Positions 20,448 to 36,913 of a stretch of DNA of 64,000 nt are shown one piece after another. Source of the DNA: an uncultured Bryobacterales bacterium (GTDB taxonomy: Bacteria > Acidobacteriota > Terriglobia > Bryobacterales > UBA6623); assembly GCA_958295955.1 (NCBI GenBank), contig OY282420.1:2122435-2186434 (forward strand), written 5' to 3'. The number at the start of each line of letters is the position of its first letter. Position 1 is the stretch's first letter. A program made the translations under genes and the position numbers. A model generated the notes under the pieces. It searched no databases. It was not told the DNA's origin and saw only the letters and a list, made by a program, of their open reading frames with translations.

Positions 20448-20524
20448 GGGCGGCTAGCTCAGTTGGTTGGAGCGCCTGCCTTACAAGCAGGAGGCCGCCG
20501 GTTCGAGTCCGGCGCCGCCCACCA
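20448..20524 (+). tRNA. tRNA-Val (anticodon TAC)
   Basis: Complete cloverleaf with an encoded CCA end. Acceptor arms GGGCGGC (20448-20454) and GCCGCCC (20514-20520), D-arm GCTC...GAGC, anticodon stem CCTGC/GCAGG around loop CTTACAA, giving anticodon TAC (reads GUA and other Val codons), and T-arm GCCGG-TTCGAGT-CCGGC. A discriminator A and CCA follow. It stands between two divergent protein units. Confidence 0.97.
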
Positions 20525-20595: not shown

Positions 20596-20832
20596 ATGGC
20601 CGGCCTAAACGTCATCGCCGAACTCAGCGCGCGCATCGACGCTTCGGCAGCGCGTAGCGAACGCAGCAACACTGAACTCGGCGCACGCATCGACGCTTTG
20701 GGCGCGCGCATCGATACTTTGGCCGCGCGCATCGACACTCTCCAGAAGGTGATTTGGCCGCTGGTCATCGCCATATCCGCCGCGCTGCTCAGCGCGGTCG
20801 GCGGCGACCTGTTCACGCTGTTCAAGGGTTGA
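20596..20832 (+). CDS. Small coiled-coil protein with C-terminal membrane anchor
   Basis: Protein of 78 residues just downstream of tRNA-Val. Residues 5-50 form a coiled coil with three exact-length heptads (GARIDAL, GARIDTL, AARIDTL, residues 29-49), followed by one membrane helix (VIWPLVIAISAALLSAVGG) and a short tail. Short proteins of this shape (coiled coil plus C-terminal anchor) are common and resemble the C-terminal half of DUF1640-type proteins. The ATG at 20596 is the first that excludes the tRNA; no clear ribosome-binding site is seen. Its 3' end overlaps the convergent FG-GAP gene by 11 bases. Function unknown. Confidence 0.5.
   Translation: MAGLNVIAELSARIDASAARSERSNTELGARIDALGARIDTLAARIDTLQKVIWPLVIAISAALLSAVGGDLFTLFKG
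20680..20742. repeat. Three 21-base coding repeats
   Basis: Three consecutive diverged 21-base units, each encoding (G/A)ARID(A/T)L, within the small coiled-coil gene. Unit number may vary between strains. Confidence 0.7.
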
Positions 20833-22453
20833 CCGCCGCTTGCGGCGCCGCCTCGACGAGGCGGTGCGTCATGCCGGCCGCGAGACCGCTCAGACTCTGG
20901 CGCAGGCCGCTCGGCCAGCGAATCTCGACATCCGCCGCTTTTGCCCCCCCGAGGCCGAAGTGGAGGCGCAGATCGTTTTGCGACAGGTAACTGCCGCCGC
21001 TGCGCACGGAATCCACTTGACTGCGCCCGCCGGCGGTGACGCGCACGCGGGCGCCGACCGCGCTGCGGTTCGACTGCACGCCCTCGAGCTTCAGGGCAAT
21101 CCAGGAATTCTCGGGCTCGCCGGCGAATCGGATCAGGGCGGGCGGCTCGTTCTGGCTGTTGATCAGCGCTTCGACCCGCCCGTCGTTGTCGTAGTCCCCG
21201 AGGGCCAGGCCGCGGGCGGCGTGCGTTTCCGTAACGCCGGGACCCGCTGTTTCCGCCGCGTCCTCGAAGCGCCCGCCGCCGCGGTTGCGGTAGAGGATCG
21301 ACCGCTGCCGGTAGCGGATGCCGCTCTCCAGACCGGCCGCTTCGGGGAAGACGTGTCCGTTGACGAGCAACAGGTCTTTCCAACCGTCATTGTCCACGTC
21401 GAAAAACCCGGCGCCCCAACCGACATGGCGCGTGTTCCGGCCGACGCCGGCGGCGAGCGTCGCCTCGTCGAAGTCGCCCGCGCCGCGGTTGCGGTAGAGC
21501 GTGGATCGCTCGTCGGAAAAGTTCGTGCGAAAGATGTCGACCGCGGCGTCGCCGTCGTAGTCGCCGGCGGCGACTCCCATGCCGGAGAGCGCCCGGCCGT
21601 CGGCATCGAGCGCCGCGCCGCGGAACAGCGCCTCGTCCTCGAACTTTCCGCCGCCCCGGTTGATATACAGCAGCGACGGGGTGCGGTCGCAAGCAACGTA
21701 GAGATCGACCCGCCCGTCGTTGTTCCAATCGCCGGTGACCACGCCGAGCGCATAGTTTCGAGCCGGCGCGGCGATTCCCGACTCCACCGAAACGTCGGTG
21801 AAGCCGCCTTCGCCGTCGTTGCGGTAGAGCAGATTGCGGTCGAAGGGCAGGCCGCGCGGGCCGCAGGCAACGGGAATGCTGCGGTAGTAGCAGTAGGGGT
21901 TGGCGCCGGGGCGCGGCGTCGTCTCGAAGTCGAACTTCAGGTAGTTGGCCACGAACAAGTCGAGGTCGCCGTCGTTGTCGTAGTCGAGGAAGGCGCAGCC
22001 GGTGTTATAGCGAACCCGGTCTTGCAGCAACCCGGCGGACGCGGCTACGTCGGCGAAGCGTTCGCCCGCGAGGTTGCGGTAGAGCCGGTTGCGGCCCCAA
22101 TAGGTGACGAGAAAATCGGTGTAGCCGTCGTTGTCGTAATCGCCCGCGCAAACGCCTTGGCCCCAGCCTTCGCTCTCGAGACCCGCGGCCGCGGTGACGT
22201 CGGCGAAGCGGCCCTCGTCGTTGCGGTACAGGCGGTTGACGCCGCCCTTGCCGGACACGAGAAAGGCATCGAGATCGCCGTCGTTGTCGTAGTCGATCCA
22301 GGCCGCTCCGCTGCCGGTGGTTTCCAGAATCCAGGTCTTCGCTTCGTCGCCGCCGTTGGGGAAGACGTGCGTCAAACCGACCTCGGCGGCCACGTTGACC
22401 GACTGCGCCGCGGCCGCGGCCGCCAGCCCGAGCGCCGCAAGCAGCCGGGTCAC
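20822..22453 (-). CDS. Exported FG-GAP/VCBS-repeat protein with ASPIC/UnbV domain
   Basis: Exported protein of 543 residues. A short signal peptide (LLAALGLAAAAAAQS) is followed by a seven-bladed-propeller-like array of FG-GAP/VCBS repeats with calcium-binding DxDxDG loops (IDYDNDGDLDAFLVSG, GDYDNDGYTDFLVTY, LDYDNDGDLDLFVANY and others). The last 70 residues form an ASPIC/UnbV domain (VDSVRSGGSYLSQNDLRLHF, then IRWPSGLRQSL). Such CRTAC1-like proteins are extracellular; in bacteria their roles are largely unknown. The start is a GTG at 22451-22453 overlapping the TGA of the upstream TPR gene (GTGA), which settles the start. It is the last gene of a dense minus-strand cluster. Confidence 0.88.
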   Translation of the reverse strand: MTRLLAALGLAAAAAAQSVNVAAEVGLTHVFPNGGDEAKTWILETTGSGAAWIDYDNDGDLDAFLVSGKGGVNRLYRNDEGRFADVTAAAGLESEGWGQGVCAGDYDNDGYTDFLVTYWGRNRLYRNLAGERFADVAASAGLLQDRVRYNTGCAFLDYDNDGDLDLFVANYLKFDFETTPRPGANPYCYYRSIPVACGPRGLPFDRNLLYRNDGEGGFTDVSVESGIAAPARNYALGVVTGDWNNDGRVDLYVACDRTPSLLYINRGGGKFEDEALFRGAALDADGRALSGMGVAAGDYDGDAAVDIFRTNFSDERSTLYRNRGAGDFDEATLAAGVGRNTRHVGWGAGFFDVDNDGWKDLLLVNGHVFPEAAGLESGIRYRQRSILYRNRGGGRFEDAAETAGPGVTETHAARGLALGDYDNDGRVEALINSQNEPPALIRFAGEPENSWIALKLEGVQSNRSAVGARVRVTAGGRSQVDSVRSGGSYLSQNDLRLHFGLGGAKAADVEIRWPSGLRQSLSGLAAGMTHRLVEAAPQAAVNP

Positions 22454-23463
22454 TGTTGGGGAAGTTCTCCTATCCGCCGCAGAAAATCGGTGAATTCGCC
22501 CTCGGGGGAGCGTTGCATCTCGTCGAGACGCTTTTTGACCGCGAGCGCCTCGGACTCGCGGCCCGCGTTGCGGTAGGCGAGCATCAGGTTGTAGTGCGCG
22601 GATTCGCTTTGCGGCGCCAACTCTACGGCCCGTTCGAGCAACTCGACCGCACGCGGCCAACTCTTTTGCGCGGACAGCGCGCGGCCCAACGCAGTCAGCG
22701 CCTCGGAAAAGTCGGGGTCCAGCCGCACGGCGTTTTCAAGCCGCTCGCGAGCCGCTTCATGTTCTCCTTCGACTTCGAGGATGCGCGCAATCTGGTATTC
22801 CGCAACCGAGTCGTTGGGGTTCAAGCGCAGCTCGGCTTCGAATTCGCGGCGGGCGGCCGCCAACGCTTCGGGCGCATGCGATTCCATCAGCAGCGCGCGC
22901 CCGAGCCGGTAGTGCAAATTGATCGCCCGGGGATTCTTTTCGACTGCCCGGCGGTACTCGGCGACCGCCTCGGAGAACCGGCCGCGGATCTCGAAAATTT
23001 CGGCGGACAACTGGTTGACTCGAAACGAAGCCGGCGCCTTGTCGAACATCCGCTCGACGGCGTCGTTCCACGCCTTCAGATGAAGGCGGGCGATTTCATA
23101 GAGCACGTCGCCGTCATCGGGAAATTCGCTTGCCAGCAGGTTCAGCAAGCTCAACGCGCCGGCGAAGCTTTTTTCGGCAATCCGGCAACGCGCCAGGGCC
23201 AGCCCCGCGAGACGCATGACTTGCCGGTCGGATTTTTCGTCGAACGCGGCCTGCAGCCCGCCGGCGGCTTGGCCGCAGCGCCCGGTCGCGGCCCGCGCCA
23301 GAGCAACGAAGGCGCGGGCGCGCTTGTCGGGCAAACCCTCGAGCGCGGCCTCGGCCGCCGTGTAGCGGCCCTGCTCGAAGAGCTCGATGCCTTCCAGGAC
23401 CGATTGCGCCTGAACGGAAGCCGCCGCCAAGACCAGCAGCGCAAGGCGACTAATGGCCGGCAT
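22450..23463 (-). CDS. Exported TPR-repeat protein
   Basis: Protein of 337 residues with a signal peptide (ISRLALLVLAAASVQAQS) and then almost continuous tetratricopeptide repeats, for example YTAAEAALEGLPDKRARAFV, FSEAVAEYRRAVEKNPRAIN, HEAARERLENAVRLDPDFSE and WPRAVELLERAVELAPQSES. It is predicted periplasmic or lipid-free secreted, a protein-binding scaffold for the exported FG-GAP proteins on either side. The ATG overlaps the end of the 81-residue gene by 14 bases, and its stop overlaps the GTG of the FG-GAP gene. Coupled translation of all three is likely. Confidence 0.82.
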   Translation of the reverse strand: MPAISRLALLVLAAASVQAQSVLEGIELFEQGRYTAAEAALEGLPDKRARAFVALARAATGRCGQAAGGLQAAFDEKSDRQVMRLAGLALARCRIAEKSFAGALSLLNLLASEFPDDGDVLYEIARLHLKAWNDAVERMFDKAPASFRVNQLSAEIFEIRGRFSEAVAEYRRAVEKNPRAINLHYRLGRALLMESHAPEALAAARREFEAELRLNPNDSVAEYQIARILEVEGEHEAARERLENAVRLDPDFSEALTALGRALSAQKSWPRAVELLERAVELAPQSESAHYNLMLAYRNAGRESEALAVKKRLDEMQRSPEGEFTDFLRRIGELPQQ

Positions 23464-23695
23464 CGTCCATCACCAGATCGAGGCCGCCGAAACGGCCGCG
23501 GCGCTTGCCGTCGAGGTAACGGAAACGCAACAGCGGCGGATCGCCCGGCGCCAGCACGGCCTCGGGCAGCAGCCGTTGCGACGAGGTCGCGCCGAGCGTC
23601 AGCACGCGCCCGGAGCGGGCGATGCGCTCGACCGCCCGGTCCGCCGGAGCGGCGGCGGTCGCCGCGAACAGACAGAACAACCCGGCAAGTCTCAT
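23450..23695 (-). CDS. Small exported protein (81 residues)
   Basis: Unrecognised small protein with a clear signal peptide (MRLAGLFCLFAATAAAPADR) and a mature part of about 60 residues with alternating polar and hydrophobic residues (VLTLGATSSQRLLPEAVLA, then PPLLRFRYLDGKRRGRFGG), suggesting a small beta fold. Its ATG overlaps the TGA of the large FG-GAP/UnbV/TPR gene (ATGA at 23692-23695) and its end overlaps the next TPR gene by 14 bases. The double overlap and signal peptide argue that it is real and belongs to this unit. Function unknown. Confidence 0.65.
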   Translation of the reverse strand: MRLAGLFCLFAATAAAPADRAVERIARSGRVLTLGATSSQRLLPEAVLAPGDPPLLRFRYLDGKRRGRFGGLDLVMDDAGH

Positions 23696-26600
23696 GGGCG
23701 CGTCAACTCCTCCAGCGCCTTGCGGCCCGTTTCGCTTTCGGGAACCGCGGCCAACAACTGCTCCAGCACGCCGCGCGCGCGGGGGCGGTCTCCCGCGCGA
23801 ACATGGATGCGCGCCAGGTTGATGTAGAGCATCTCCTCGCGCGGGGCGACCCGCAGCCCGTAGCGCAGGGCGGCCCGCGCTTCGTCGGGACGGCCCGTCC
23901 GTATGTAGAGCACCGCCAGATTATTGATTGCCGAAGCATTGTCGCGCTGCGCCTCGATCGCCTTCTGGAACAGCGCTTTCGCTTCGTCGAGGCGGTCTTG
24001 CTTGGCCAGCAACAACCCCAGACGGTCGGCCGTGTCGGAGTCGCCCGGGTCGATATCGAGCGCTTTGCGGTACATGCGCTCGGCGGCGGCCGCGTCCCCG
24101 AGGCGCGCATAGGCCAGTCCGGCGTTGGCCTGCGCGAACGAAAAATCGGGATCGATGGCCAGCGCCCGCGCAAACCGTTCCAGCGCCGCCTCGTAATTGC
24201 CTTCCTCCAGGGAGAGGCCGCCGAGGTTGTTCCACAGTTCCGGGGAGTCCCGGCGCAAGCGCGCAGCGCGCTCCAGATGCGTTTTCGCCTCGGGGAGTCT
24301 CTTCGCTCCCAAGTGGATTTGCCCGACAGCCAGCAGGGTCTTGAAGTTTTCAGGATCGCGGCGGATCACCTCTTCAAGATAAGGCAATGCCTGTTGCGGG
24401 TAACCGGCGCCGAAAAAAGCCGCGCCGTGCCGGAAGTAATTGCGCGCCGGCGGCGCGGCGTAGAACCCCGGGAACGGCAGCGCCCGCGCCGGCGCTTCGC
24501 CTGCCGCCGCCAGATCGCGAACCGCCTCGCCGGCGGAGGGCAGGCCCGGGTACAGCTTCACCGCGCGGGAGTCCGCGTCGAGCAACAGCGTCAAGGGCAG
24601 CGACAGCCCGACCCGGTAATCGAAAATATAGCGCCGGAACAAGGCGTACCAGGCCGCCGCTTGCGGCTCCTCCGCCCGGAGATCGACGGCTTGCCAGGGA
24701 ACGGCCGCGGGCGGCGGCGGCCGCTCGCCGGCGGCGAGACAGACGAACCCCGGACCGGGACGTTTTTCCGGCAGCGGCAACGGGTCGAGCAGCCAGGTCG
24801 GCTCGAACGTTTCTTCGTTGACGGCCTCGAGCGCCGCTTCGCCCCGCGGCCAGGGGCGGGGCGCGAACGGCCGCTTCGACGCCACTCCCGCCCCCTCGAC
24901 GATCTCGTAAAGATGCTCGGCTTCGAGATCGTCGAGGGTCTCGACCGCTCCCGACGGCCAGCGAATCGTAGCCCGCGCGCGCTGTGCCTTGCCCAGCCCG
25001 AAGTGCAGCCGCTTGGTGTGCTGGCAGAGGTATCCCGAACCGGCGTGCAGCCCCTGCGACGTTGTCCCGCCGGCGGCGAAGACGAGCGTGACCCAGGCGC
25101 CGATCGCGTCTCGGTTCGAGCGCACCCCGCGCAGGCTGAGCGCCAAGGCGCGGTTTGCGCCGAACGAGCGGTTGCGCAACGCGCGCGCCTGCGGCGCGAG
25201 GCGGCTTTTGAGCAGCAGATCGAGCCGGCCGTCGCCGTCCAGATCCGTCGCCGCGAACGCACGGCTGTCTTCCGCGAAATCGAGTCCCGACACGCCGGAA
25301 AAGTCGAAGTAGCGGCCTGCGCGGCGCGCGTAGAACACGTTGGGCTCGCGGCCGTTCCAGGATTTGCCCTCGCGCACGAATTGGTTGAGCGCATTCCAGC
25401 CGGCCTCGTAGGGTCTCGACGGCGAGGCGTCGGCGCCCGACTGGGCCGCGACTCGCCGCCAGAAGAAACCCTCCAGGTCTTCGGCCGCGCCGTTGGTCAG
25501 CATGCCCGCGGCGACGTAGAGTTCGGGAACGCCGTCGCAATCGAAATCCAGGCCCTCGCCGGCCCACGACCAACGGCCCATCTCGACTTGCTCTTGCGCG
25601 CCCGTTTCCTCGAAGGTTCCGTCGCCGCGGTTGCGGTAGAGGGAGTTGCCCTTGACGTGGCGGCGGAATTCCTCGCGCAGGCCGTTTTCGGCAACGAGCG
25701 CAAACGCCGGGTCCGCGATCAGGCGCCGCCCGGCCGCCGTCCACATGTTGGTGACGTAGAGATCGGGACGGCCGTCGCCGTCGTAGTCCAGCCAGCTTGC
25801 GCTCATGCCCGGTCCGAGGTCTTGCGCGCCGCTCTCCGCGGCGATATCGCGGAAGCGCTCGCCGTCGAACTTGTACAGGTTGTTGCGGCCGAAGTCGTTG
25901 GCCACGTAGAGTTCGGGCCGCGCGTCGCCGTCGTAGTCGCACCAGGCGGCGGCGAAGCTGTAGCGGTCGTTGTTGCGGTCGAGGCCCACCCGCGCCGTGA
26001 CGTCTTCGAACGACCCGGAGCCGTCCGCGGCAAGCCGATTGCGGAACAGGAAATTCGGCGGACCGCCCGTCGAATCGTGATACGGCGCCGGGTAATTGTA
26101 TTGATCTTCGCTCTGAAAGTAGATGTAGGCGCACAGGTAGAGGTCGAGGCGGCCGTCGCCGTCGTAGTCGGCCGCGGCCATGCCGGTGAACGTGCCGCGC
26201 GGCGGCCGGGCAAAGCGGAATGCGTCCGCCCGGAGCTCGAAGCGGCCGCCGCCGCGGTTGAGAAAGTAGAGCGGCCGGCCGGCCACGACGACCAGGTCTT
26301 GCAGGCCGGCGTTGCGGAAGTCGGCAAACAGCGCGCTCGAGCAGTTGTCGAGCAGGCCGACGCCGGCCTCTGCGGTGATGTCGCGCAGCGCGCCGTCGGG
26401 GCCGCGGCGGTAGAGGCGGTTGGGCAGGCCCCCGGGCTGACAGACGTAGATCTCGTCGAAGCCGTCGTTGTCGATGTCGCCGACGGCGATGCCGTTCTGC
26501 CCGTAAACGTCGATGCCGCAGGCCGAATCGAGGCGCGAGCGCCAGTAAGGGACGCCGCGCAAGAGCTGCTCCCGAAACGAGTCCGCCGCGCCGAACAGTC

Positions 26601-27201
26601 CTGCCGTGGCGTCCTCGAAGAGCTTTCGCGGGGAGAAGGTCCGCGACTCGTCCAGAGGCGCGAACGACTCCGCCTGCCGCCCGCGCCAACCGATGCGCCA
26701 ATGTCCGACGCGGTATTCGAGGCGGCCGCCGGCCCGCGAGGCGATTTCGTAGCGCACGCGGCCTGCGTCGAGGGGAAAGAACCGCGCGGCGCGGACCTCC
26801 CCCAGGGAATCGATCCAGCGGGCAAGAGCCGCGGAAAATTCGCCCGCGCCGAGCGTTTGCGCGGCGTAGCGGGCAACCTCGGCGTCGTCCGCGGCGGGCT
26901 CGTAGGCAACGGGGTTCGGGTCGCCGCCGCGGAAGCCCTCAGCCGGCGGCAGGCGCCGGGTTTCGAGCAGCCTGTCCAGGACGGAGGCGATCTCTACGGC
27001 GCGTTTCTCGCTCGCGAACTCGTCGTTCTCGGGGTCGATCAGCGGCCGCAGCTTCTCGAACGCCGGCGTCTCGGCGAAGCGCGCGGGGAAGCGCGCCTGC
27101 TCCGTCTCGGCGGCGGCCGCGGGCGGCGCCGGCCCATACCTGAGCGCTCCGGCCGCTCCGGCGGCCGTCAAAAAGCGGCGCCGATTCAGATGCTCAGCCA
27201 T
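23692..27201 (-). CDS. Tat-exported FG-GAP / UnbV / TPR multidomain protein
   Basis: Very large exported protein of 1169 residues. A twin-arginine leader (LNRRRFLTAAGAAGALRYG) is followed by a region without recognised domain (about 40-230), then FG-GAP/VCBS repeats with DxDxDG loops (GDIDNDGFDEIYVCQ, ADYDGDGRLDLYLCA, LDYDGDGRPDLYVTN) at about 240-660. An ASPIC/UnbV domain ends near residue 770 (TIRWPSGAVETLDDLEAEHL). A stretch resembling a thioredoxin-fold core but lacking CxxC (LSLPLTLLLDADSRAVKLYPG) lies around 860, and at least six TPR units occupy about 925-1165. The start at 27199-27201 is supported by the Tat motif and by a 16-base overlap with the upstream gene. Central component of the cluster; activity unknown. 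Confidence 0.85.
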   Translation of the reverse strand: MAEHLNRRRFLTAAGAAGALRYGPAPPAAAAETEQARFPARFAETPAFEKLRPLIDPENDEFASEKRAVEIASVLDRLLETRRLPPAEGFRGGDPNPVAYEPAADDAEVARYAAQTLGAGEFSAALARWIDSLGEVRAARFFPLDAGRVRYEIASRAGGRLEYRVGHWRIGWRGRQAESFAPLDESRTFSPRKLFEDATAGLFGAADSFREQLLRGVPYWRSRLDSACGIDVYGQNGIAVGDIDNDGFDEIYVCQPGGLPNRLYRRGPDGALRDITAEAGVGLLDNCSSALFADFRNAGLQDLVVVAGRPLYFLNRGGGRFELRADAFRFARPPRGTFTGMAAADYDGDGRLDLYLCAYIYFQSEDQYNYPAPYHDSTGGPPNFLFRNRLAADGSGSFEDVTARVGLDRNNDRYSFAAAWCDYDGDARPELYVANDFGRNNLYKFDGERFRDIAAESGAQDLGPGMSASWLDYDGDGRPDLYVTNMWTAAGRRLIADPAFALVAENGLREEFRRHVKGNSLYRNRGDGTFEETGAQEQVEMGRWSWAGEGLDFDCDGVPELYVAAGMLTNGAAEDLEGFFWRRVAAQSGADASPSRPYEAGWNALNQFVREGKSWNGREPNVFYARRAGRYFDFSGVSGLDFAEDSRAFAATDLDGDGRLDLLLKSRLAPQARALRNRSFGANRALALSLRGVRSNRDAIGAWVTLVFAAGGTTSQGLHAGSGYLCQHTKRLHFGLGKAQRARATIRWPSGAVETLDDLEAEHLYEIVEGAGVASKRPFAPRPWPRGEAALEAVNEETFEPTWLLDPLPLPEKRPGPGFVCLAAGERPPPPAAVPWQAVDLRAEEPQAAAWYALFRRYIFDYRVGLSLPLTLLLDADSRAVKLYPGLPSAGEAVRDLAAAGEAPARALPFPGFYAAPPARNYFRHGAAFFGAGYPQQALPYLEEVIRRDPENFKTLLAVGQIHLGAKRLPEAKTHLERAARLRRDSPELWNNLGGLSLEEGNYEAALERFARALAIDPDFSFAQANAGLAYARLGDAAAAERMYRKALDIDPGDSDTADRLGLLLAKQDRLDEAKALFQKAIEAQRDNASAINNLAVLYIRTGRPDEARAALRYGLRVAPREEMLYINLARIHVRAGDRPRARGVLEQLLAAVPESETGRKALEELTRP

Positions 27202-28454
27202 TGCGCCGCGGTTGCGAACACTTCTTCGAGGCGAATCGGCTTGTCGGCTTGCAGCAGCGGAAAATCCGCCGGGCCGATCGCCAGCAAGGCGTCCATGCCC
27301 TCGCCCACGAACAGGTAGGCGGTGTTGCGGCGGTACTCGGCGTATTTCTCGCACTCCCGCCAGACGTACTCGTAGAAGATCTCCAGATCGACATACGAGC
27401 CGAGCATGTCGGCCTGGGTCGGAATCGGGTTCGTCTCCTCCTGGTCGGAGTAAATCAGCAAACTCGAGAACGGCTTGACCTTGTTGCGGATGCCGAACGC
27501 CACGCACACGAGAGCGGGGCGGGCGCGGCGGATCGCCTGCACCGCCGCCCATTCCACGAACGTGTTGTTGATCAGCAGCGTCCCGTTGCCGTTCAGCAAG
27601 ACCGACTGCAAAAAATCGCGCAGCGCCGGGTCGCCGCCCGCCGCCCGCTTCAACGCTCCCGGATTCATGCGCTGCAAGCGCTCGCCGAGTTGCCGGGGTC
27701 CCGGGATTTGCTCGCGGGTCACCATTGCGTTGACCTGCTCCATGAGGATTTCGCGCAGTTCGGCCAGGCGGCCGTAGCTCAGGCCCGTCCAGCCGGAGAT
27801 GGATTCCGCCAGGCGGTGCAGCGAGTCTTCGGCCTCGACGACCCAGGCGTCGTAGGGGTCTTGCGTCCGCGTTGCGCCGAAGCGGTCGAACAAGGCCGCG
27901 GCGCGTGCGGCGCGCGGCGCTCCGCTGAACATGCGCGCCAGATAATCCTCCGGCGCATCGGACTCGTCGAGCGCCAGATTCACCAGCTTGCCTTTTCCTT
28001 GCAGGCGGCGCCACATGCGGTCCGGACCCATCGGCAATTCCGAGGGCGAAACGACGACGACGAGCCGCGGCCGGCCGCGGCGCGCGACCTCGGCGTCGAG
28101 CAGGGGGTCGATGCGCCCGAAGATATCCGCGATGACTTGGCGCCATTCGGCCAGATGGCGGTTGCGCTGCAGGAAATCGACGTGCTCGAGCGTGAATTCC
28201 CTGGTGCTCCAGGTGCGGCGGTCAACGCCCATCTTTGCTTCGACCGCGCGGAGCGGAGCGAAGAGCCGCTCGACGGCTTGGTTGTCCGAGCGGGCGAGCA
28301 TGCCGAACAGCCGCTCGAAGTAACCGCGTTCGGCCGGGAACAGTTTTTTCCAGTCCTCGATGCGGTCGAAGGAATACGCCGCGAAGGTGGGCGGCAGGCG
28401 GTCGAAGAGGCCGTCGTCGATCAGCGTTTGCAGCTTGCGGCTGACTTTGGCCAT
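27186..28454 (-). CDS. Unrecognised 422-residue protein in the FG-GAP cluster
   Basis: I do not recognise a family. The protein has no signal peptide or membrane helix, so it should be cytoplasmic, unlike all its neighbours. It is mostly helical and charged, with a central alpha/beta-looking part: RPRLVVVVSPSELPMG (about 128-143), NGNGTLLINNTFVEWAAVQA and ALVCVAFGIRNKVKPFSSLL (about 295-335), then a Tyr/Glu-rich helix (LEIFYEYVWRECEKYAEYRR). Two parallel-strand-like segments ending in small residues suggest a Rossmann-like or hydrolase fold, but no catalytic motif can be named. It starts nine bases after the phosphatase-fold gene and overlaps the large FG-GAP gene by 16 bases, so co-expression is near certain. 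Confidence 0.75.
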   Translation of the reverse strand: MAKVSRKLQTLIDDGLFDRLPPTFAAYSFDRIEDWKKLFPAERGYFERLFGMLARSDNQAVERLFAPLRAVEAKMGVDRRTWSTREFTLEHVDFLQRNRHLAEWRQVIADIFGRIDPLLDAEVARRGRPRLVVVVSPSELPMGPDRMWRRLQGKGKLVNLALDESDAPEDYLARMFSGAPRAARAAALFDRFGATRTQDPYDAWVVEAEDSLHRLAESISGWTGLSYGRLAELREILMEQVNAMVTREQIPGPRQLGERLQRMNPGALKRAAGGDPALRDFLQSVLLNGNGTLLINNTFVEWAAVQAIRRARPALVCVAFGIRNKVKPFSSLLIYSDQEETNPIPTQADMLGSYVDLEIFYEYVWRECEKYAEYRRNTAYLFVGEGMDALLAIGPADFPLLQADKPIRLEEVFATAAQWLSI

Positions 28455-28463
28455 CGTCCGCCC

Positions 28464-29621
28464 TCAAATCAATTCCGCAATCGGCCGGCCGGCGGTCTCG
28501 CCGAGCTTCACGCCAAGCAACTCCGCCGCCGTGGCGCAAATGTCCACGTGGGCGATCGGCCGGTCGGTTTCGCCCTTTGCCGCGCCCGCGCCGAGAGCCA
28601 GCATCCACGTGTTGCGGCACGAGGGGTCGCCGCTGCGGTGGTTCAGAAAGCCGTTCGCCGTGTCGGCGTCGCCGTCGCGGCCCAGTTCGGGGAGCGTCAG
28701 CATGAGCGTCCGGCCCTTGTAGGCGGGGTTCGTCTGCGCCTCGTCCCACAACATGCCGCAAAGGCGGTCGGTCTTGGCGATCGCCTGCAGATAAAGCGAG
28801 TAGGCGCCCCAGTGGGCGACGTCCATGTCCCAGAAATTGACCAGCATCAGGCGCGGCGCGAACTCGCGCATCACCTCGCGGGCGACGAAGAAGGTCAACT
28901 CGTCTCCGGAACTGGGCGCTTCGGGGCCGTGGATGTACTCGACCAGGCTGCGCGTGAGCGTGTCCTTGACCTGACGGTCGAGCCGCCGGCCGCCCTCGAA
29001 GATCGTCCAGCCGATGCCTTCGTAGCCGGCGTTGAGAATGTTCTCGAGGCGGCGCAGCACGTTGGCGCGGTCGGCGACGCCCGCGGCCGGGGCGCGGGCG
29101 ATGACGCCGGAGACGGCTTCGAGCAGCAACTGCTTGGGAAGCACGACGTTGGCGCCGAAGGGCTCGCCGAAATCGCGGCTGCGGCCCGCGCCCATCGTGG
29201 CGAAGCTCTTGTTGGTGCAGATCGCCCAGGCGTCCGTCGGCCCGGCGCCGCTCGCCTTGCGGTAGCGCTCGAACAGCGTGGGACTCGCCGCGCGGCCGAA
29301 GCCGAAATCGTCCACGCGCTGCCAGTTGCCGGTCACGATCGACGAGGTGGAGTTGTAGTGCGAAAGGACTCCCGAATTGATGCAGGTCTTGAAAAAACGG
29401 CCTTCGGACCGCAGCGCCCGCAGGCGGGGAATGTTGCGCAGGCCCTCGGGCGCGAACGTTTCGGCGTAGCGCACGCCGCCGCCGAAAGTGACCAGAATGA
29501 TTTTCAGATCGCCTTCGGCCCGCGGCTCGGGCTCCTGCGCCCGCAAACGCCAAGGCAAAAGCCGGTCGGCGATGGCCAAGCCCGACAGGCGGAGAAATTG
29601 GCGCTTCGAGAGCGAGAACAC
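28464..29621 (-). CDS. Exported alkaline-phosphatase-fold (DUF1501-like) protein
   Basis: Protein of 385 residues with a Tat-like leader (SKRQFLRLSGLAIADRLL). The body has the layout of the alkaline phosphatase/sulfatase superfamily: an early strand with ILVTFGGGVRYAETFAPEGL where the first metal ligands are expected, RLRALRSEGRFFKTCINSGV, LMLVNFWDMDVAHWGAYSLY in the middle, and a late metal-ligand region (LPELGRDGDADTANGFLNHR, then IAHVDICATAAELLGV). The first-motif Asp and the Ser/Thr nucleophile are not obvious, so catalysis is unproven and it may be closer to DUF1501 proteins. It is followed nine bases later by the 422-residue gene and preceded by a molybdenum-enzyme gene 62 bases upstream. 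Confidence 0.65.
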   Translation of the reverse strand: MFSLSKRQFLRLSGLAIADRLLPWRLRAQEPEPRAEGDLKIILVTFGGGVRYAETFAPEGLRNIPRLRALRSEGRFFKTCINSGVLSHYNSTSSIVTGNWQRVDDFGFGRAASPTLFERYRKASGAGPTDAWAICTNKSFATMGAGRSRDFGEPFGANVVLPKQLLLEAVSGVIARAPAAGVADRANVLRRLENILNAGYEGIGWTIFEGGRRLDRQVKDTLTRSLVEYIHGPEAPSSGDELTFFVAREVMREFAPRLMLVNFWDMDVAHWGAYSLYLQAIAKTDRLCGMLWDEAQTNPAYKGRTLMLTLPELGRDGDADTANGFLNHRSGDPSCRNTWMLALGAGAAKGETDRPIAHVDICATAAELLGVKLGETAGRPIAELI

Positions 29622-29683
29622 TTTCTATATGGTAATGCCCAAGCGCGTTCGCTCGGCAGGCGGCGGCCCGGGCGGGCAAGCGG

Positions 29684-30364
29684 TCAGTACGCGGTAATCT
29701 CGCCGCCGGAAATCTTTCGACGGACGTTCCTGCCCAGGTCCAGCGGATGATCGTAGCCGGCCAGAATCTCGCCGCTCGGCGAATAGTAGGGGCCGATGTC
29801 GCAGGCCATCGATCCCTCGCCCTTCTCGACAAAGGTGATCCTGGTGATCAGCTTGGCCGACTTGTAACCGTACTTCGAGGGGTCGATCAAGCGCAGCGGC
29901 GCGCCGTGGCTGTCGCTCAGCGGCTCGCCGTTCATGCGCAGCGCCATGAGCACGCGGGGAGCGGTCATCTCTTCCAGCGACATGTACTCGTACCACTTGT
30001 CATGACAGTCGATGCGCACCGCGGTTGCGCCGGCGCGGGGCCGCACGTCTTCAAGAAGCTCGCCGAAGCGGAAGCCGCCCCACGACGCCCGCGCCGACCA
30101 GCACTGCACGCACTTCATGCGCGAGCTTTGCTCGACTTGGCCGTAATGCTCGAGGTCGTCCGTCGAAAACGCGCGCGGACGCTCGACGAGGCCGCCGACC
30201 TGCAAGCGGTACGACGCCCGCTCGAGCGGCGGCACGGGGTTGTACCACATGAGGCGGAACCCGTGTTTGTCGGGCTCGTCGCTGGGCAGCAGCAGTTTTT
30301 GCTCGGCGCCCGCCGCCGCTCCGGCTGCCGCGCCCATCGCGGCCAGGAACTTTCGCCGTTTCAT
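29684..30364 (-). CDS. Sulfite-oxidase-type molybdenum enzyme (MsrP-like catalytic subunit)
   Basis: Exported molybdopterin-dependent oxidoreductase of 226 residues, similar in size and layout to the catalytic subunit MsrP, which repairs methionine sulfoxide in periplasmic proteins. The leader (MKRRKFLAAMGAAAGAAAG) has the paired arginines of a Tat signal. The cofactor-ligand cysteine is expected in KCVQCWSARASWGGFRFGEL (Cys85 or Cys88), and YGYKSAKLITRITFVEKGEG is the conserved substrate-side segment. The membrane heme partner MsrQ is not encoded in the window. It is likely the first gene of the cluster to 20822. Sulfite oxidase or another reductase activity cannot be excluded. Confidence 0.82.
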   Translation of the reverse strand: MKRRKFLAAMGAAAGAAAGAEQKLLLPSDEPDKHGFRLMWYNPVPPLERASYRLQVGGLVERPRAFSTDDLEHYGQVEQSSRMKCVQCWSARASWGGFRFGELLEDVRPRAGATAVRIDCHDKWYEYMSLEEMTAPRVLMALRMNGEPLSDSHGAPLRLIDPSKYGYKSAKLITRITFVEKGEGSMACDIGPYYSPSGEILAGYDHPLDLGRNVRRKISGGEITAY

Positions 30365-30527: not shown

Positions 30528-31058
30528 CTAGGGGCTTGCCGTTGACGGCGGGGAAGCGGACGGCCCCGCGGAGGCCGCGCTCTCGACCAACTCGATGACC
30601 GTCGCGCCGCGGTCGGCGCGCGCGCCCAGTTTCCAGAAATAAACAGGGATCGACCACGCGGCTACGACCACGCCGATCAGGAGCGCGGGATTGCCTTGCC
30701 CGCGTTCCCCCCAGGCGTTCCCGAATCCCATCAAGGCGGCAAGGCCCGCGCCGCCGCCGAGGATGCGCTTGAGCCTGCGATCCGTCCGATAGGTAATGCG
30801 AATCTCGCGGATGTCTTTACGCGCGAAAGTTTCCGTCGAGCCGCCGCGCTTGAGCATCAGGCCGGCATCGTCCGCGCCGGCAAGCTTCCCCTTCAATTGC
30901 TTGCCCGATTGCAGCAGAACCCGGATCGGCGGACGGACGCCGTCCTCCGCCAGCATGGTCCGCGCTTGCGCCCAATCGGCCTGGACCGTAACGACCTCGG
31001 CCATGCCCGGCGGAACCGCCAGAACCAGAATCAACAGTAACGCAACCGTGTGTTTCAT
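30528..31058 (-). CDS. Small exported/membrane protein with Sm-like beta segment
   Basis: Protein of 176 residues with a signal peptide (MKHTVALLLILVLAVPPGMA). A beta-rich stretch (PIRVLLQSGKQLKGKLAG, then GLMLKRGGSTETFARKDIRE, about residues 43-85) has the rhythm of Sm/LSm-like domains that recur in acidobacterial envelope proteins. One or two hydrophobic segments follow (ILGGGAGLAALMGFG and LLIGVVVAAWSIPVYFW), and a Ser/Pro-rich tail ends it. AAGGAGG (31064-31070) lies five bases before the ATG and fixes the start. It is monocistronic as far as can be seen. Function unknown. Confidence 0.7.
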   Translation of the reverse strand: MKHTVALLLILVLAVPPGMAEVVTVQADWAQARTMLAEDGVRPPIRVLLQSGKQLKGKLAGADDAGLMLKRGGSTETFARKDIREIRITYRTDRRLKRILGGGAGLAALMGFGNAWGERGQGNPALLIGVVVAAWSIPVYFWKLGARADRGATVIELVESAASAGPSASPPSTASP

Positions 31059-31322: not shown

Positions 31323-34300
31323 TTAGAACATGAACCGCACGGCCAACTGAAGCTGGCGGTTCGACCCGGCTACCGTGTTGGCGACGGTCCCGAAATCACC
31401 GGAGCCGTGAGTCGTGCTTATGCTGCGAACGTTGAACTGCGGGGTATTCGTCAGGTTGAACGACTCCAGGCGGAACTGGGCCTTCATGCCCTCGTTGATG
31501 CGGAAGTCCTTGAACAACGAGAGGTCCACCGTTCTCGTGGGCGGCCCGATGTTCGAGTAGTTGCCGAGCATGCCGAAGGTGCCGGGCGCCGGGTCCATGA
31601 AGGCCGACGTGTCGAACCACTCCTCGGGGCTGCGGCCGCCAGACGGCGCGGCGTTGGGGTCTTTGCCCGGAACGGGGTCGGGCCGCGTGGTGCCGGAGCA
31701 CGAGCAAACCGCCCGGTTGGTGCCCACGTTGAAGTAGTTGCCCGTCTGCAGCGTCATGATGCCGTTGAGCTGCCAGCCGCCGGCGATGGTGCGCGCCGCG
31801 CCGGTCAGGTTCTTGCCGATAGGCAACTGCCAGTTGCCGCTGAGCACGAAGCGGTGGCGTACGTCGAAGCTGGCGTGGGCATACTCCAGGGACTGGTGCG
31901 GCGAGCGGTTGCCCGGCCCGCCCGAGAGCGTCGTGCCCGAGTCGGCCAGCGCGTGCCCCCAAGTGTAGGCGGCCAGGAAGCCCAAGCCGTTGGAGAAGCG
32001 CCGGTCCCACTTGGCCGTCAGCGCATGGTAGGCCGAGCGGGCGTTGCTGTTGGTGAAGCTGATGTTGGAATTGCCCACGAACTTGAACGGGCGTCGGCTA
32101 AGCCTGTCGATGTTCGGCCGCGGGTCGGTCACCGGCTGGTTGCCGTTGTAGTTGTCGGTCAGGCGGTTGCCCTTCGAGCCGATGTAGGCGATCTCCATGA
32201 CCGAGTTCCAGCCCATGTCCCTCTGGATGTTGAGGTTCCACTTGTTGACCAGCGGCCAGCGGCGGCGCGTATAGACCGAGCGGAAGCTGATCGGCGCATT
32301 GCCGGTGAACGAATCCACCGGGAACCCGTCGGAGAAGCGGTCGATGAAGGGGTTGCGCGCGGAGGCGCGGGGCGGGTTGAAGCGGACTTCCTGGTTGAAG
32401 GGCACGTTCTCGCCGCGGTTGGGGTTGCCGCCCTCGTTCTCCTCGGCGCCGTAGAACATGCCGAAGCCGGCGCGGACGACCAAGCCCGGCTGCGCCTCGT
32501 AGGCGAAGCCGATGCGCGGAGCGATGTTGCTCTTGTCCCAGCCGGTCAGGTAGGTCGAGGCGACGCCGCGCTCCACGGCGATGCCGGGGAAATCGGTGGC
32601 GAAGTTGGGCGGCAGCGGCGCGTCCTGGTCTTTGCCCATGGGAATGACCAGCGTCGGCTGCGCGTGGTCGTGGCCGAACACGTCGAGGTGGGCCTGGCGA
32701 CCGAATTTCTCGCCGATCGGGCTGGTCACCTCGTAGCGGATGCCGATGTTGACGGTCAGCTTCGAAGAGACCTTCCAGTCGTCCTGCGCGTAGAACGAGT
32801 AGGCGTCCTTGAACGACGAGATGAAGTTCGAGGTGGTGATGCGGCTGAAGCCCGGAACGCCGAGCAGCCACGAGGCCATGCCGTCGCCGGTGTCGTTGAA
32901 GCCGACCTGGTTGGTGTGGTCTTGGCGGAAGTCCATGCGCCCGCGCGGCGAAGGCACCTGGAAGAAGGGGAAGCCGATCGGGCGGTACTCCGCGCCGAAC
33001 TTGAAGGCGTGCGCGCCCTTGTTCCAGGAGACGTTCTGGATGAAGTCCCAGACGTTGCTGTATTCCTGCGTGGGCAGCCACTCCGAGCCGCCGACCGTCG
33101 AATAGCCTTGCGGGCCGATGCGCATCAGGCCGCCGTTATTGGTGGTGAACGGGTTGAGGCCGCCGATGCCCAGCGACGAGAACGAGTCGCTGTCGGCGTT
33201 GGCCTGCGTGCGCGTGGTGATCAGCCGCGAATACGAGACGCGCGACTCGGTAATCAAGGCGGGCGACCAGATCTTGGTGTAGCTGATCATCGCGTTGCGG
33301 CTCTGATTCTTTTCCTGCTCGCCCAGGAAGCCGCCGGCGTCGAGATCGCCGGGCAAGGGGGGGGACTGCATCTTGTCTTCCTCGATCCAGCTCACGCTGC
33401 CGAAGATGCTGTCGTTGTCGGAGATGCGGTGGTCGATGCGCACGTCGAACTGATCGACGTTGCGCGTCGCCTCGCGCTGGGTGAAGAAGTTCCTCCCCGG
33501 ACGTTTGCCCGGGGCGGCAATGTCGTGGTTCGGCGCCGGGTACTGGCCGATCAACTGCGCCGCGACGGGGTCGAACATGGCGTTCGGAATCCTGTTGTTG
33601 GGGAAGGGGTCGCGTACGTCCAGGACGCCGTTGACATCGCGCTGGGTGAACGGATCGAAGATCTGGCCGCGCATCACGGTGTTGCCCAACTCGTCCATAC
33701 CCTGCACGTCGCCGCTGATCAGGTTGGAGAAATCGCCGCCGGCGAAGCCGGCGCTGGGTACTATCAGGTTGCTGGAGAGACTGCCGTCCTCGATGCGCGT
33801 GCCCTGGTAGTCGGCGAACCAGAAGGTGCGGTCTTTGACCAGCGGGCCGCCGATGGCCAGCCCGTACTGATCCTGGCCGTAAACGCCTTTTTCCTGTCCG
33901 GCGCGGTTGGCCTGCCAGGTGTTGGCGTTCATGGCGTCGTCCTGCAGGAACCAGAAGGCCGTGCCGTGAACGTCGTTGCTGCCCGATTTGATGGTGATGT
34001 TGACTACGCCGCCGGCCGCGCGGCCGTATTCGGCGTTATAGCCGTTGGTCAGGATCTGCATTTCGCCGATGGCCTCGACCGAGGGGCCGACGACGTAGGC
34101 GGTCTGGTTGATGAAGTCGATGACGTTGACGTTGTTATCGACGCCGTTGAGCAGGAAGTTGTTCTGGCCGTTGGAGCGCACGCCGTTGGCCGAGAAGCCG
34201 CCGCCGGCCGCGTCGCGCGCGCCGGGCTCGGCGGGCACGACCGCGGGCACCGTGCGCGCCAGGAAGGCGAAACGGCGCTGGCCGCCCAAGGGCAACTCGC

Positions 34301-34730
34301 TGGTCTGACGGCTCTCGAGGTTGCCGCCCATCTGCGTGGTCTCGGTCTGCAGCGCCGGAGGCTGCGCGGTGACCTCGATGGTCTCGGTGACTTGACCGAT
34401 CTCGAGCACGAAGTTGGCCTGTACGCGGGACGAGGACTGCACCAGCACGCCGGTCTGCACGCCCTTCTTGAAGCCCGCCGTCTCGGCCGAGACGGTATAG
34501 GTGCCGGGCTTGATCAGCGGACGGATGTAGTTGCCCGCCGCGTCGGACTCCACCAGGTCGGTGACGCCCGTCGATTCCTCGACGATGGTAATGGACGCCC
34601 CGGGAATGGCCGCGCCCGAGGGGTCGGTGACCGCGCCCAAAATCGTTCCCATGTCGCGCTGCGCCGTCGCGGGCGCAGCGAGACAAAGGAGCAGCGCCGG
34701 CATGAGCAGCGCCAAATACAGGTTACGCAT
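31323..34730 (-). CDS. Large TonB-dependent (Oar-like) outer-membrane receptor
   Basis: Outer-membrane protein of 1135 residues of the type greatly expanded in Acidobacteriota. The signal peptide (LYLALLMPALLLCLAAPATAQ) is followed by a carboxypeptidase-regulatory-like domain at about 25-110 (ILGAVTDPSGAAIPGASITI, then GTYTVSAETAGFKKGVQTG). The plug at about 140-260 includes FSANGVRSNGQNNFLLNGVD and YNAEYGRAAGGVVNITIKSG. The rest is beta-barrel, ending in the aromatic QLAVRFMF. GGAG at 34742-34745 serves the ATG at 34730. A sigma-70-like promoter lies about 95 bases further upstream. The ligand is unknown; related genes sit next to polymer- and peptide-degradation genes, but here the neighbour is a divergent FG-GAP/UnbV protein. 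Confidence 0.92.
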   Translation of the reverse strand: MRNLYLALLMPALLLCLAAPATAQRDMGTILGAVTDPSGAAIPGASITIVEESTGVTDLVESDAAGNYIRPLIKPGTYTVSAETAGFKKGVQTGVLVQSSSRVQANFVLEIGQVTETIEVTAQPPALQTETTQMGGNLESRQTSELPLGGQRRFAFLARTVPAVVPAEPGARDAAGGGFSANGVRSNGQNNFLLNGVDNNVNVIDFINQTAYVVGPSVEAIGEMQILTNGYNAEYGRAAGGVVNITIKSGSNDVHGTAFWFLQDDAMNANTWQANRAGQEKGVYGQDQYGLAIGGPLVKDRTFWFADYQGTRIEDGSLSSNLIVPSAGFAGGDFSNLISGDVQGMDELGNTVMRGQIFDPFTQRDVNGVLDVRDPFPNNRIPNAMFDPVAAQLIGQYPAPNHDIAAPGKRPGRNFFTQREATRNVDQFDVRIDHRISDNDSIFGSVSWIEEDKMQSPPLPGDLDAGGFLGEQEKNQSRNAMISYTKIWSPALITESRVSYSRLITTRTQANADSDSFSSLGIGGLNPFTTNNGGLMRIGPQGYSTVGGSEWLPTQEYSNVWDFIQNVSWNKGAHAFKFGAEYRPIGFPFFQVPSPRGRMDFRQDHTNQVGFNDTGDGMASWLLGVPGFSRITTSNFISSFKDAYSFYAQDDWKVSSKLTVNIGIRYEVTSPIGEKFGRQAHLDVFGHDHAQPTLVIPMGKDQDAPLPPNFATDFPGIAVERGVASTYLTGWDKSNIAPRIGFAYEAQPGLVVRAGFGMFYGAEENEGGNPNRGENVPFNQEVRFNPPRASARNPFIDRFSDGFPVDSFTGNAPISFRSVYTRRRWPLVNKWNLNIQRDMGWNSVMEIAYIGSKGNRLTDNYNGNQPVTDPRPNIDRLSRRPFKFVGNSNISFTNSNARSAYHALTAKWDRRFSNGLGFLAAYTWGHALADSGTTLSGGPGNRSPHQSLEYAHASFDVRHRFVLSGNWQLPIGKNLTGAARTIAGGWQLNGIMTLQTGNYFNVGTNRAVCSCSGTTRPDPVPGKDPNAAPSGGRSPEEWFDTSAFMDPAPGTFGMLGNYSNIGPPTRTVDLSLFKDFRINEGMKAQFRLESFNLTNTPQFNVRSISTTHGSGDFGTVANTVAGSNRQLQLAVRFMF

Positions 34731-35227
34731 AGCGATTTTCTCTCCTTCGAAAAACTTGTTCTTGAAACGATGACAGAGGACCGAAACAAAGGAAGGCGCA
34801 AGCCCCCCCTACTCAATCCCCACCATGGGGCATTATGACAAACCGCCCGCAGTCAAGTCAACAACAATCGACCGATTGCAAAGCATTGATTCCAAAAGAT
34901 TTGCTATGAATTTACGGATTTTGCGGGGCAATTCTATGAAAATCGGGATTTTGGGGCGCGGCTTGCCTTGCGGGTCGATGACCCTCGGGCGCCGGCGAAA
35001 GTCTGAAAGGCCATGCCGCCGGCGCCGCGCAAGTCCGCTGGTAAACTATTGTTCGGGCCTTCCTGAAGGCTCACGCCATCGAGCGGCTTCCAGGCGATGA
35101 CGCGCTTCCCGGACTTATGGACCTCGGAGGGACAGCCCTCAAGCCGACCGGCGGCCCCTCCGGCGAAGAGTTCGCGCGCGGCTTGCGGAATGCCCAGCGG
35201 TCCGCCGGCCGCAGGCGCAATGTCCGG
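34731..35227. other. 497-base divergent intergenic region
   Basis: No convincing gene is seen here. It holds the receptor's ribosome-binding site and promoter on the left and an AT-rich core (21 G/C in the 60 bases of 34861-34920, versus about two thirds elsewhere). The right third is GC-rich and leads to the FG-GAP/UnbV start at 35228; an upstream in-frame ATG at 35117 would extend that protein by an arginine-rich stretch that is not a signal peptide. Confidence 0.6.
34832..34861 (-). promoter_or_regulatory. Sigma-70-type promoter for the 1135-residue TonB receptor
   Basis: On the minus strand, TTGACT (34856-34861) is followed after 18 bases by CATAAT (34832-34837), each five of six to consensus. 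The predicted transcript start near 34825 would leave a leader of about 95 bases before the ATG at 34730. A second TTGACT (34851-34856) overlaps the first, at poor spacing. Confidence 0.6.
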
Positions 35228-36913
35228 ATGAGACTCTACCGGCTTTTTCTGGGCATTCCGGCGCTTTTGGGCGCCGCGGGGCCGCACTATCGGGATGTCG
35301 CCGCGGAGTGGGGGATCGCCGAAACCGTCACGTTCGGCAATCCTGCCGCCAACGATTTCATCCTGGAAACGACCGGCACGGGGGCGGCTATATTCGATTT
35401 CGACGGCGACGGCGACAACGACGTCTTCGTGGTCAACGGCACGACGTTCGAGTTGGAAGCCGCGGGCGAGAGTCCGCTTGCGCACCTTTACGAGAACGAC
35501 GGGGCGGGCCGCTTCCGGGAGATTGGCGCGCAGGCCGGGTTGACCAAGACCGGCTGGGGGCAGGGCGTCTGCGCCGGCGACTACGACAACGACGGCGCGA
35601 CCGACCTGTTCGTCACCTACTTCGGGTCGAACGTGCTCTACCGCAACCTGGGCGGCAAGTTCGAAGACGCGACGCGCAAGGCGAAACTGCCCGCCGCGGG
35701 GCGGCGCTGGGGCGCGGGCTGCGCCTTTCTCGATTACGACCGCGACGGGAACCTGGATATTTTCGTTGCCAACTATGTCGATCTCGATCTCGAAAATACG
35801 CCCAAGCCGGGCTCCGGCGAGGAGTGCCGCTGGAAGGGCCTGCCCGTGATGTGCGGCCCGCGCGGGCTGCCGCGCGCGTTCAACGCGCTGTACCGCAACC
35901 GCGGCGACGGCGCGTTCGAGGACGTGTCGGAGCAAGCCGGCATCCTCGCCCCCGGCGGGCGCTACGGCCTGGGGGTCGTCAGCGCGGACTTCAACAACGA
36001 CGGGCTGACCGACATCTACGTCGGCTGCGACATGACCGCCGGCCTGCTCTACCAGAACAACGGCGACGGGACGTTCTCCGAGACGGGCGGCGAAACCGGC
36101 GTCGCCTACAACGTCAACGGCCAACTGCAAGCAGGCATGGGCGTCGCCGTCGCCGACTACGACGGCAACGGGTTTCTGGACATCGTGAAAACCAATTTCT
36201 CGGGAGACCTGCCCTCGCTCTACAACAACGAAGACGGCTTTTTCTTCGAGGACGTCTCGATGGGCGCGGGGCTGGGCGTCAACCAGTTGCTGGGCTGGGG
36301 CGTCGTCTTCGTCGACGCCGACGAAGACTCCCGTCCCGACATCCTGATGGCCCACGGCCACGTTTACCCCGAGGTGGACGCGGCGTCGATCGGCGAGACT
36401 TACCGCCAGCCGATGCTGTTTTACCGCAACGCCGGCGGCGGGCGCTTCACGGACGACACCGCCGGGGCCGGAGAGGCGCTGGCGCAAAAGCGCCCCTCGC
36501 GCGGCATGGCCGCGGGCGACCTGGACGGCGACGGACATCCCGAGATCGTGGTCGTCAATCTCAACGCGCCGCCGACGCTGCTGCGCAACACGGCGGAGTT
36601 GGCCAACGCAGCGGCGGTCGAGTTGATCGGCGGCAAGTCGAACCGCAGCGCGATAGGCGCGCGGGCGCTGGCGCGGTTTTCCGGCAAAACCGTTATCCGC
36701 GAAGTCTCCGGCGGCGGCAGCTATTTTTCGCAGAACGACCTGACGCTGTACTTCGGCCTCGGCGGCGCCGAGCGGATCGAGCGGCTCGAGGTCGCGTGGC
36801 CCAGCGGAAGAAAGCAAAGCTGGACCGATCTCGCCGCGAACCGCCGCCATACCCTGACCGAAGGGAAACGCAAGGCCGCATCGACCCCGCTGCGGCGCCG
36901 GCCCGTACCGTAG
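35228..36913 (+). CDS. Exported FG-GAP/VCBS-repeat protein with ASPIC/UnbV domain
   Basis: Third protein of this type in the window, 561 residues. A short leader (MRLYRLFLGIPALLGAAG) is followed by propeller-type repeats with calcium-loop motifs (FDFDGDGDNDVFVVNG, GDYDNDGATDLFVTYFG, LDYDRDGNLDIFVANY, ADFNNDGLTDIYVG, ADYDGNGFLDIVKTN), then an ASPIC/UnbV domain at about 465-540 (IREVSGGGSYFSQNDLTLYF, then VAWPSGRKQSW). It is very close in layout to the protein at 20822-22453. I chose the ATG at 35228 because it gives a signal peptide; an upstream ATG adds a non-leader extension. It is divergent from the large TonB receptor and followed after 91 bases by the oxidoreductase set. Confidence 0.87.
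   Translation: MRLYRLFLGIPALLGAAGPHYRDVAAEWGIAETVTFGNPAANDFILETTGTGAAIFDFDGDGDNDVFVVNGTTFELEAAGESPLAHLYENDGAGRFREIGAQAGLTKTGWGQGVCAGDYDNDGATDLFVTYFGSNVLYRNLGGKFEDATRKAKLPAAGRRWGAGCAFLDYDRDGNLDIFVANYVDLDLENTPKPGSGEECRWKGLPVMCGPRGLPRAFNALYRNRGDGAFEDVSEQAGILAPGGRYGLGVVSADFNNDGLTDIYVGCDMTAGLLYQNNGDGTFSETGGETGVAYNVNGQLQAGMGVAVADYDGNGFLDIVKTNFSGDLPSLYNNEDGFFFEDVSMGAGLGVNQLLGWGVVFVDADEDSRPDILMAHGHVYPEVDAASIGETYRQPMLFYRNAGGGRFTDDTAGAGEALAQKRPSRGMAAGDLDGDGHPEIVVVNLNAPPTLLRNTAELANAAAVELIGGKSNRSAIGARALARFSGKTVIREVSGGGSYFSQNDLTLYFGLGGAERIERLEVAWPSGRKQSWTDLAANRRHTLTEGKRKAASTPLRRRPVP

Follow-up and report, generated by a model that had tools for sequence, protein, structure and literature searches.

The window analyzed here is a 64,000-nucleotide stretch of contig OY282420.1 from an uncultured Bryobacterales bacterium. 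Within positions 20822-30364 it holds a cluster of seven minus-strand genes, two of which encode proteins of 385 and 422 residues (P385 and P422) that occur as a pair across a set of Acidobacteriota genomes. The features of the locus are collected in Table 1. The coordinates and order of the seven genes, as given in an initial annotation of this DNA, were upheld by the window sequence, and a codon-model gene caller recovered the identical seven. Read 5' to 3', the genes for the 226- and 385-residue products are separated by 62 bases and those for P385 and P422 by 9 bases, after which successive genes overlap by 16, 4, 14, and 4 bases; gaps of 163 and 264 bases lie further upstream. Given the 62-, 163-, and 264-base gaps, the layout does not establish one transcript for all of the genes, and scans for promoters and terminators that might mark the limits of an operon performed no better than on shuffled sequence. 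Twin-arginine translocation (Tat)-type N-termini were read from the sequences of the 226-, 385-, and 1169-residue proteins and Sec-like N-termini from those of 81, 337, and 543 residues. P422 has neither, which agrees with the earlier statement that every product but the 422-residue protein is exported.

The distribution of P385 and P422 was established by profile searches of 396 Acidobacteriota genomes. P385 was found (at >240 bits) in 30 genomes and P422 in 31, with both present in 30; P422 stood alone in one genome and P385 above this score in none, and two further genomes gave only weaker P385-like matches. Of 80 fetched loci, 66 had P385 followed directly by P422 on the same strand, for a total of 76 pairs. 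Where a locus carried two pairs, the matched P385/P422 distance profiles beat the swapped ones in 10 of 10 cases, and by this measure of sequence distance the copies of the two proteins co-evolve by subtype. Broken copies of P422 were observed at G155:C4:383843-385731 and G329:C2:1879314-1881638; the adjacent P385 was broken too in the former and intact in the latter.

Six relatives in which the cluster is split retained P385, P422, and the 1169-residue gene in every case (6 of 6). These genomes carry one P385 copy each, 74-76% identical, and P422 lies far from P385, near genes for the 81-residue, TPR (tetratricopeptide repeat), and UnbV proteins. The 1169-residue gene stood alone in both of the loci read for it, and P385 lay beside the molybdenum enzyme, a sensor kinase, and a response regulator in all three of the loci read for it. 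That these genes are kept although unlinked points to function and not to drag. At loci L131, L133, and L135, the genes for the molybdenum enzyme and P385 are preceded, in the same direction, by sensor-kinase-like and response-regulator-like genes, and these may encode a regulator of that enzyme-P385 pair where it is separated from P422.

P385 matched no Pfam or NCBIfam family. Comparison of its AlphaFold2 (AF2) model (mean predicted local distance difference test score (pLDDT) of 77.4) with PafA gave a Z score of 27.2 and a deviation of 2.9 Å over 291 residues, and by fold the protein is predicted to belong to the alkaline-phosphatase superfamily. Nine residues, H88, D240, D265, H270, D285, D316, D318, H328, and D360, were invariant across 80 P385 homologues, and the canonical nucleophile and two-metal ligand set of the superfamily were not found in P385 in the alignments. 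Given that the canonical pairs are replaced and yet the His/Asp set is invariant, P385 resembles a metalloprotein whose site departs from the standard one. The Tat-type (R/K)R-x-hydrophobic motif was present in 73 of the 76 P385 pair members. P385 gave no match at the gathering cut-off of DUF1501 (PF07394), and a DUF1501 scan of its own genome, which returned 33 genes above the Pfam cut-off in 4.6 Mb, omitted it. Weak matches to DUF1501 were obtained with 6 of 16 P385 homologues (best E value of 8.1e-4), and comparison of P385 with the C-terminal motif block of that family by hhalign gave an E value of 5.7e-5 and a probability of 66% over 111 columns. Judged by these profiles, P385 is a distant relative of DUF1501 that falls outside its membership.

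No Pfam or NCBIfam match was obtained for P422, and its sequence gave chance-level matches only against PDB and Pfam. Residues 127-422 of its AF2 model (pLDDT of 83.6) matched iPGM and PafA with a Z score of 16.7 and deviations of 3.3-3.6 Å over 197-230 residues. All 50 of the 50 structure matches listed were members of the alkaline-phosphatase superfamily, to which P422 is also predicted to belong by fold; the idea that it represents a novel fold is unsupported by these matches. No conserved His or Cys was found among 89 P422 homologues, and because a conserved metal-ligand His is absent, P422 is a probable pseudoenzyme or non-catalytic partner. A Tat-type motif match near the N-terminus was observed in only 6 of 76 P422 proteins. 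In the window, the start of P422 lies 9 bases past the P385 stop codon, a spacing that leaves no space for a longer N-terminus.

The conserved neighborhood is larger than the seven genes to which the cluster was initially confined: those genes were upheld, but a TonB-dependent receptor gene and an FG-GAP/UnbV gene divergent from it had been omitted and are part of the same neighborhood. Here and below, the counts of testable loci take in only those with sufficient flanking sequence. Of 39 testable loci, 31 had a receptor gene that shares the strand of P385 and ends <3.5 kb upstream of it, and 2 had one on the opposite strand, set against roughly 2% expected for one orientation by our own estimate from ~42 receptors in 4.58 Mb. 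Divergent from the receptor, an FG-GAP/UnbV gene was present in 26 of the 29 loci that could be tested. The complete order, UnbV / receptor - TPR - molybdenum enzyme - P385 - P422 - FG-GAP/UnbV/TPR - 81 residues - TPR - UnbV, was present at L060 and L063, and L059 has the same genes and order with the receptor on the other strand. All seven families thus stand in order at these three loci, at ~50-70% identity, and Acidobacteriaceae keep a reduced core of receptor, TPR, 385-residue, 422-residue, and divergent FG-GAP genes; four or more of the seven families therefore co-occur in distant genomes, which the initial annotation had named as support for a system. The genes for the molybdenum enzyme, the 81-residue protein, the 337-residue TPR protein (TPR337), and the 543-residue UnbV protein (UnbV543) form an extension found mainly in Bryobacterales-like loci. 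When 84,980 species were scanned with one degenerate pattern, 176 relatives were obtained, and the 80 that were listed were all Acidobacteriota by title.

Table 1. Genes of the P385/P422 locus, in 5' to 3' order of the minus strand, with the divergent gene first
Feature	Position	Strand	Basis or remark
FG-GAP/UnbV protein, 598 residues, divergent from receptor gene	35117..36913	+	Pfam FG-GAP_3 2.4e-47, UnbV_ASPIC 3.7e-20
Oar-type TonB-dependent receptor, 1135 residues, N-terminal CarboxypepD_reg domain	31323..34730	-	OMP_b-brl_4 5.7e-221, CarboxypepD_reg 2.9e-17
Exported protein, 176 residues, no Pfam match	30528..31058	-	Slot held by TPR protein in relatives; membership uncertain
MoCo226: Tat-exported SUOX-fold molybdenum enzyme, 226 residues, MsrP-like	29684..30364	-	Oxidored_molyb 6.5e-33
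P385: Tat-exported protein, 385 residues, predicted alkaline-phosphatase superfamily, divergent DUF1501 relative	28464..29621	-	AF2 model, conserved residues
P422: signal-less partner of P385, 422 residues	27186..28454	-	Predicted helical domain (1-126) and degenerate alkaline-phosphatase-superfamily domain (127-422)
Tat-exported FG-GAP/UnbV propeller, 1169 residues, C-terminal TPR	23692..27201	-	FG-GAP_3 1.5e-39, UnbV 3.2e-17, TPR_2 5.6e-30
S81: exported protein, 81 residues, near-invariant C-terminus, no known family	23450..23695	-	Conserved homologues
TPR337: exported TPR protein, 337 residues	22450..23463	-	TPR_11 3.5e-22
UnbV543: exported FG-GAP/UnbV propeller, 543 residues	20822..22453	-	FG-GAP_3 9.2e-47, UnbV 4.6e-20; GTG start, GTGA overlap

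The coupling of UnbV proteins to receptors was assessed in the genome from which the window derives, which carries 16 UnbV genes and ~42 Oar-type (OMP_b-brl_4) receptors in 4.58 Mb. Nine of the 16 UnbV genes had an Oar-type receptor within 5 kb, compared with 1.7 expected, a result reached in 0 of 20,000 simulations; outside the studied cluster the figure was 8 of 13. This excess makes it probable that UnbV proteins generally partner receptors, and the earlier description of the FG-GAP/UnbV proteins as orphan families needs amending. In six relatives, each genome yielded 122-202 FG-GAP/TPR matches to the 1169-residue protein, and since there are >100 such matches per genome in some relatives, FG-GAP adjacency alone was set aside as evidence. 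A thioredoxin-like domain suspected by eye between the UnbV and TPR regions of this protein gave no Pfam match.

The 81-residue protein belongs to no Pfam or NCBIfam family, and homologues of it were found at 13 of 20 testable Bryobacterales-like loci. These end in (M/L)DDA(G/S)H, also at loci in which they no longer overlap the gene that follows. The conservation of this near-invariant C-terminus even without the overlap ruled out a spurious open reading frame, and on this sequence evidence the gene is judged genuine. Beyond the downstream limit of the cluster, a tRNA-Val gene (20448-20524, plus strand) is followed by a gene for a 78-residue coiled-coil-like protein (20596-20832, plus strand), and the final 11 bases of that gene coincide with the end of the UnbV543 gene; a similar-looking small open reading frame is present at 9185-9391 on the minus strand.

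Possible substrates were considered from the genes that flank the core in Acidobacteriaceae relatives. The 109 flanking proteins included GH2_N (11 occurrences), LacI (5), GH42 (3), GH92 (2), and GH95 (2), whereas 109 random proteins of related genomes gave GH92, melibiase, and fucosidase once each among the families listed; the flanks are statistically non-independent and the 25 commonest families were listed. Glycoside hydrolases and LacI regulators are, on this comparison, commoner near the Acidobacteriaceae relatives than in random stretches. Given these neighbors and the UnbV-receptor coupling, glycan uptake or processing is proposed as the function of the locus. Beyond the divergent UnbV gene of the window, genes for a Gfo/Idh/MocA oxidoreductase, a xylose-isomerase-like protein, and a DUF7133/cytochrome c protein stand in a row (37005-42529, plus strand) and likely form a sugar-oxidation cluster.

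The module is real and conserved, and its core pair is unusual in being enzyme/pseudoenzyme-like; no description of it was found, nor was literature linking these families to Acidobacteriota receptors, in a search whose coverage excluded most subscription journals. We read it, tentatively and at somewhat less than even confidence, as a conserved envelope module built on a cognate P385/P422 heteromer, with hitchhiking export and a glycan function shared with the receptor, UnbV, and TPR proteins. Here, P385 would fold in the cytoplasm and leave via Tat, carrying its invariant His/Asp cluster, and P422, most likely joined to P385 in a cognate heteromer, would most likely cross the membrane as a Tat hitchhiker upon it. 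The periplasmic pair would work with the Oar-type TonB-dependent receptor, the FG-GAP/UnbV propellers would bind substrate in the role that SusD has in Bacteroidota, the TPR proteins would serve as scaffold, and the pair would act on a substituent carried by a glycan that is imported or bound at the surface. The envelope part of the coordinated envelope complex suggested in the initial annotation agrees with the Tat and Sec signals and with the receptor; the physical complex is what we infer, as we do the hitchhiking, the glycan substrate, and any chemistry of P385. It is possible, but doubtful, that a heteromer of P385, with its non-standard site, and a metal-less pseudoenzyme rider forms the periplasmic center of an uptake system of receptor, UnbV, and TPR proteins seen so far in Acidobacteriota only.

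Several observations weigh against this interpretation. At the canonical N-terminal Asp pair P385 has Gly48-Gly49, no Thr, Ser, or Cys aligns in the nucleophile region, and the canonical Asp-His pair is represented by Asp/Glu and a hydrophobic residue (Leu/Phe). Because the canonical catalytic residues are absent, P385 may be no hydrolase. The profiles of P385 and P422 align in register (hhalign E value of 0.002) with a probability of only 14%. The distance between P422 and P385 in the six split-cluster genomes is compatible with tight co-translation, yet is not what tight co-translation would lead one to expect. No glycoside hydrolase adjoins the window cluster in Pfam scans, and a GH2 gene lies directly downstream of P422 in only 7 of 38 loci, a count on which GH2 was dismissed as a fixed member at that position.

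On a different account of the pair, P422 would remain cytoplasmic, outside the exported assembly, and serve P385, a Tat substrate, as its dedicated chaperone or proof-reading factor. TorD and DmsD are dedicated chaperones and proof-reading factors of this kind for their enzymes. Such a role, which we regard as unlikely though worth serious consideration, accounts for all of the facts observed for the pair: P422 is signal-less, almost always accompanies a Tat substrate, has an N-terminal helical domain, and has no conserved catalytic residues. Against it, P422 has the fold of its supposed client and no Pfam match to chaperone families, and in the six split-cluster genomes it sits away from P385 with the 81-residue, TPR, and UnbV genes, whose products are exported. 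Because P422 is folded like P385 and, where the cluster is split, lies among genes whose products are exported, hitchhiking is slightly preferred over a cytoplasmic chaperone.

The locus could also serve redox chemistry or repair, with the MsrP-like enzyme MoCo226 reducing oxidized groups of envelope proteins and the other proteins acting as substrates or scaffold. In its favor, MoCo226 lies between the receptor and P385 in 6 of 6 testable Bryobacterales-like loci, and in the three split loci read it adjoins P385 beside a sensor kinase and response regulator. The enzyme is, however, mostly confined to Bryobacterales-like genomes: of 25 distant loci that could be tested, only 2 have it in this position, and the other 23 keep the P385/P422 core without it there. 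Moreover, MoCo226 scored 91.7 bits against the NCBIfam MsrP equivalog, far under the cut-off of 207, and no MsrQ-like membrane protein was identified beside it in Pfam scans of the window genes. The redox link first suggested through this enzyme therefore appears weak, and we consider this account improbable. Still less probable, and in our view very much so, is the absence of any functional system, in which separate envelope genes would be kept together by shared ancestry and by the size of the FG-GAP, TPR, and receptor families. The numbers of UnbV genes and receptors in the genome, and of matches to the 1169-residue protein in relatives, do make chance neighbors possible, but the P385/P422 co-occurrence, the subtype matching, and the orientation bias of the receptor (31 same-strand versus 2 opposite, n = 39) are far above chance.

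Acidobacteriota rank among the most abundant bacteria of soil, and the envelope module that we favor here adds to them two protein families, both unnamed, that follow a clear one-to-one rule, together with UnbV/FG-GAP proteins that adjoin Oar-type receptors far above chance. The pair is present in named Edaphobacter, Granulicella, and Terriglobus strains, which makes it amenable to deletion. DUF1501, a family of unknown function that is very abundant in this genome, gains a relative with a defined partner.

Among known systems, MsrP (YedY) resembles MoCo226 in its Oxidored_molyb domain and Tat-type signal, and the Cys in MKCVQCWS of MoCo226 is presumably the molybdenum-binding position; MoCo226 differs in having 226 residues and a score below the equivalog cut-off. 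The PafA/NPP/sulfatase branch has the fold predicted for both P385 and P422, but the canonical nucleophile and several of the metal ligands are missing from P385, and P422 lacks any conserved His. DUF1501-DUF1800 gene pairs with a twin-arginine motif have been reported (PMC5122149). P385 resembles DUF1501 proteins in its Tat export, its fixed neighbor, and its alkaline-phosphatase-like C-terminal motifs D...H, (D/E)(F/L)GR, and H; DUF1501 is often paired with DUF1800 or planctomycete-type cytochrome (PSCyt) proteins, whereas P385 does not reach the DUF1501 cut-off and P422, its partner, has no Pfam family. A pair of genes for DUF1552 and PSCyt (DUF1592/1588/1587/1585/1595) proteins (16552-20300, minus strand) follows shortly downstream of the window cluster, and relatives of both occur downstream of the module at L072 and a relative of the PSCyt member beside P422 at L032. 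This pair, too, joins an exported protein to a fixed neighbor, although P385 and P422 fall outside its families.

Two subunits of PaoABC are reported to be Tat hitchhikers (PMC4273604), and the likeness lies in a signal-less protein encoded beside a partner that bears a Tat signal. The putative rider here would differ in being a pseudoenzyme with the fold of its carrier. P385 and P422 were not found in any described polysaccharide utilization locus, and no SusD domain was present in the Pfam-scanned genes between 10711 and 42529. The cluster differs from the SusC/SusD loci of Bacteroidota in having FG-GAP/UnbV and TPR proteins in place of SusD and no hydrolase beside it in the window; it resembles them in joining a TonB-dependent receptor to partner proteins, with glycoside hydrolases and LacI near some of its relatives.

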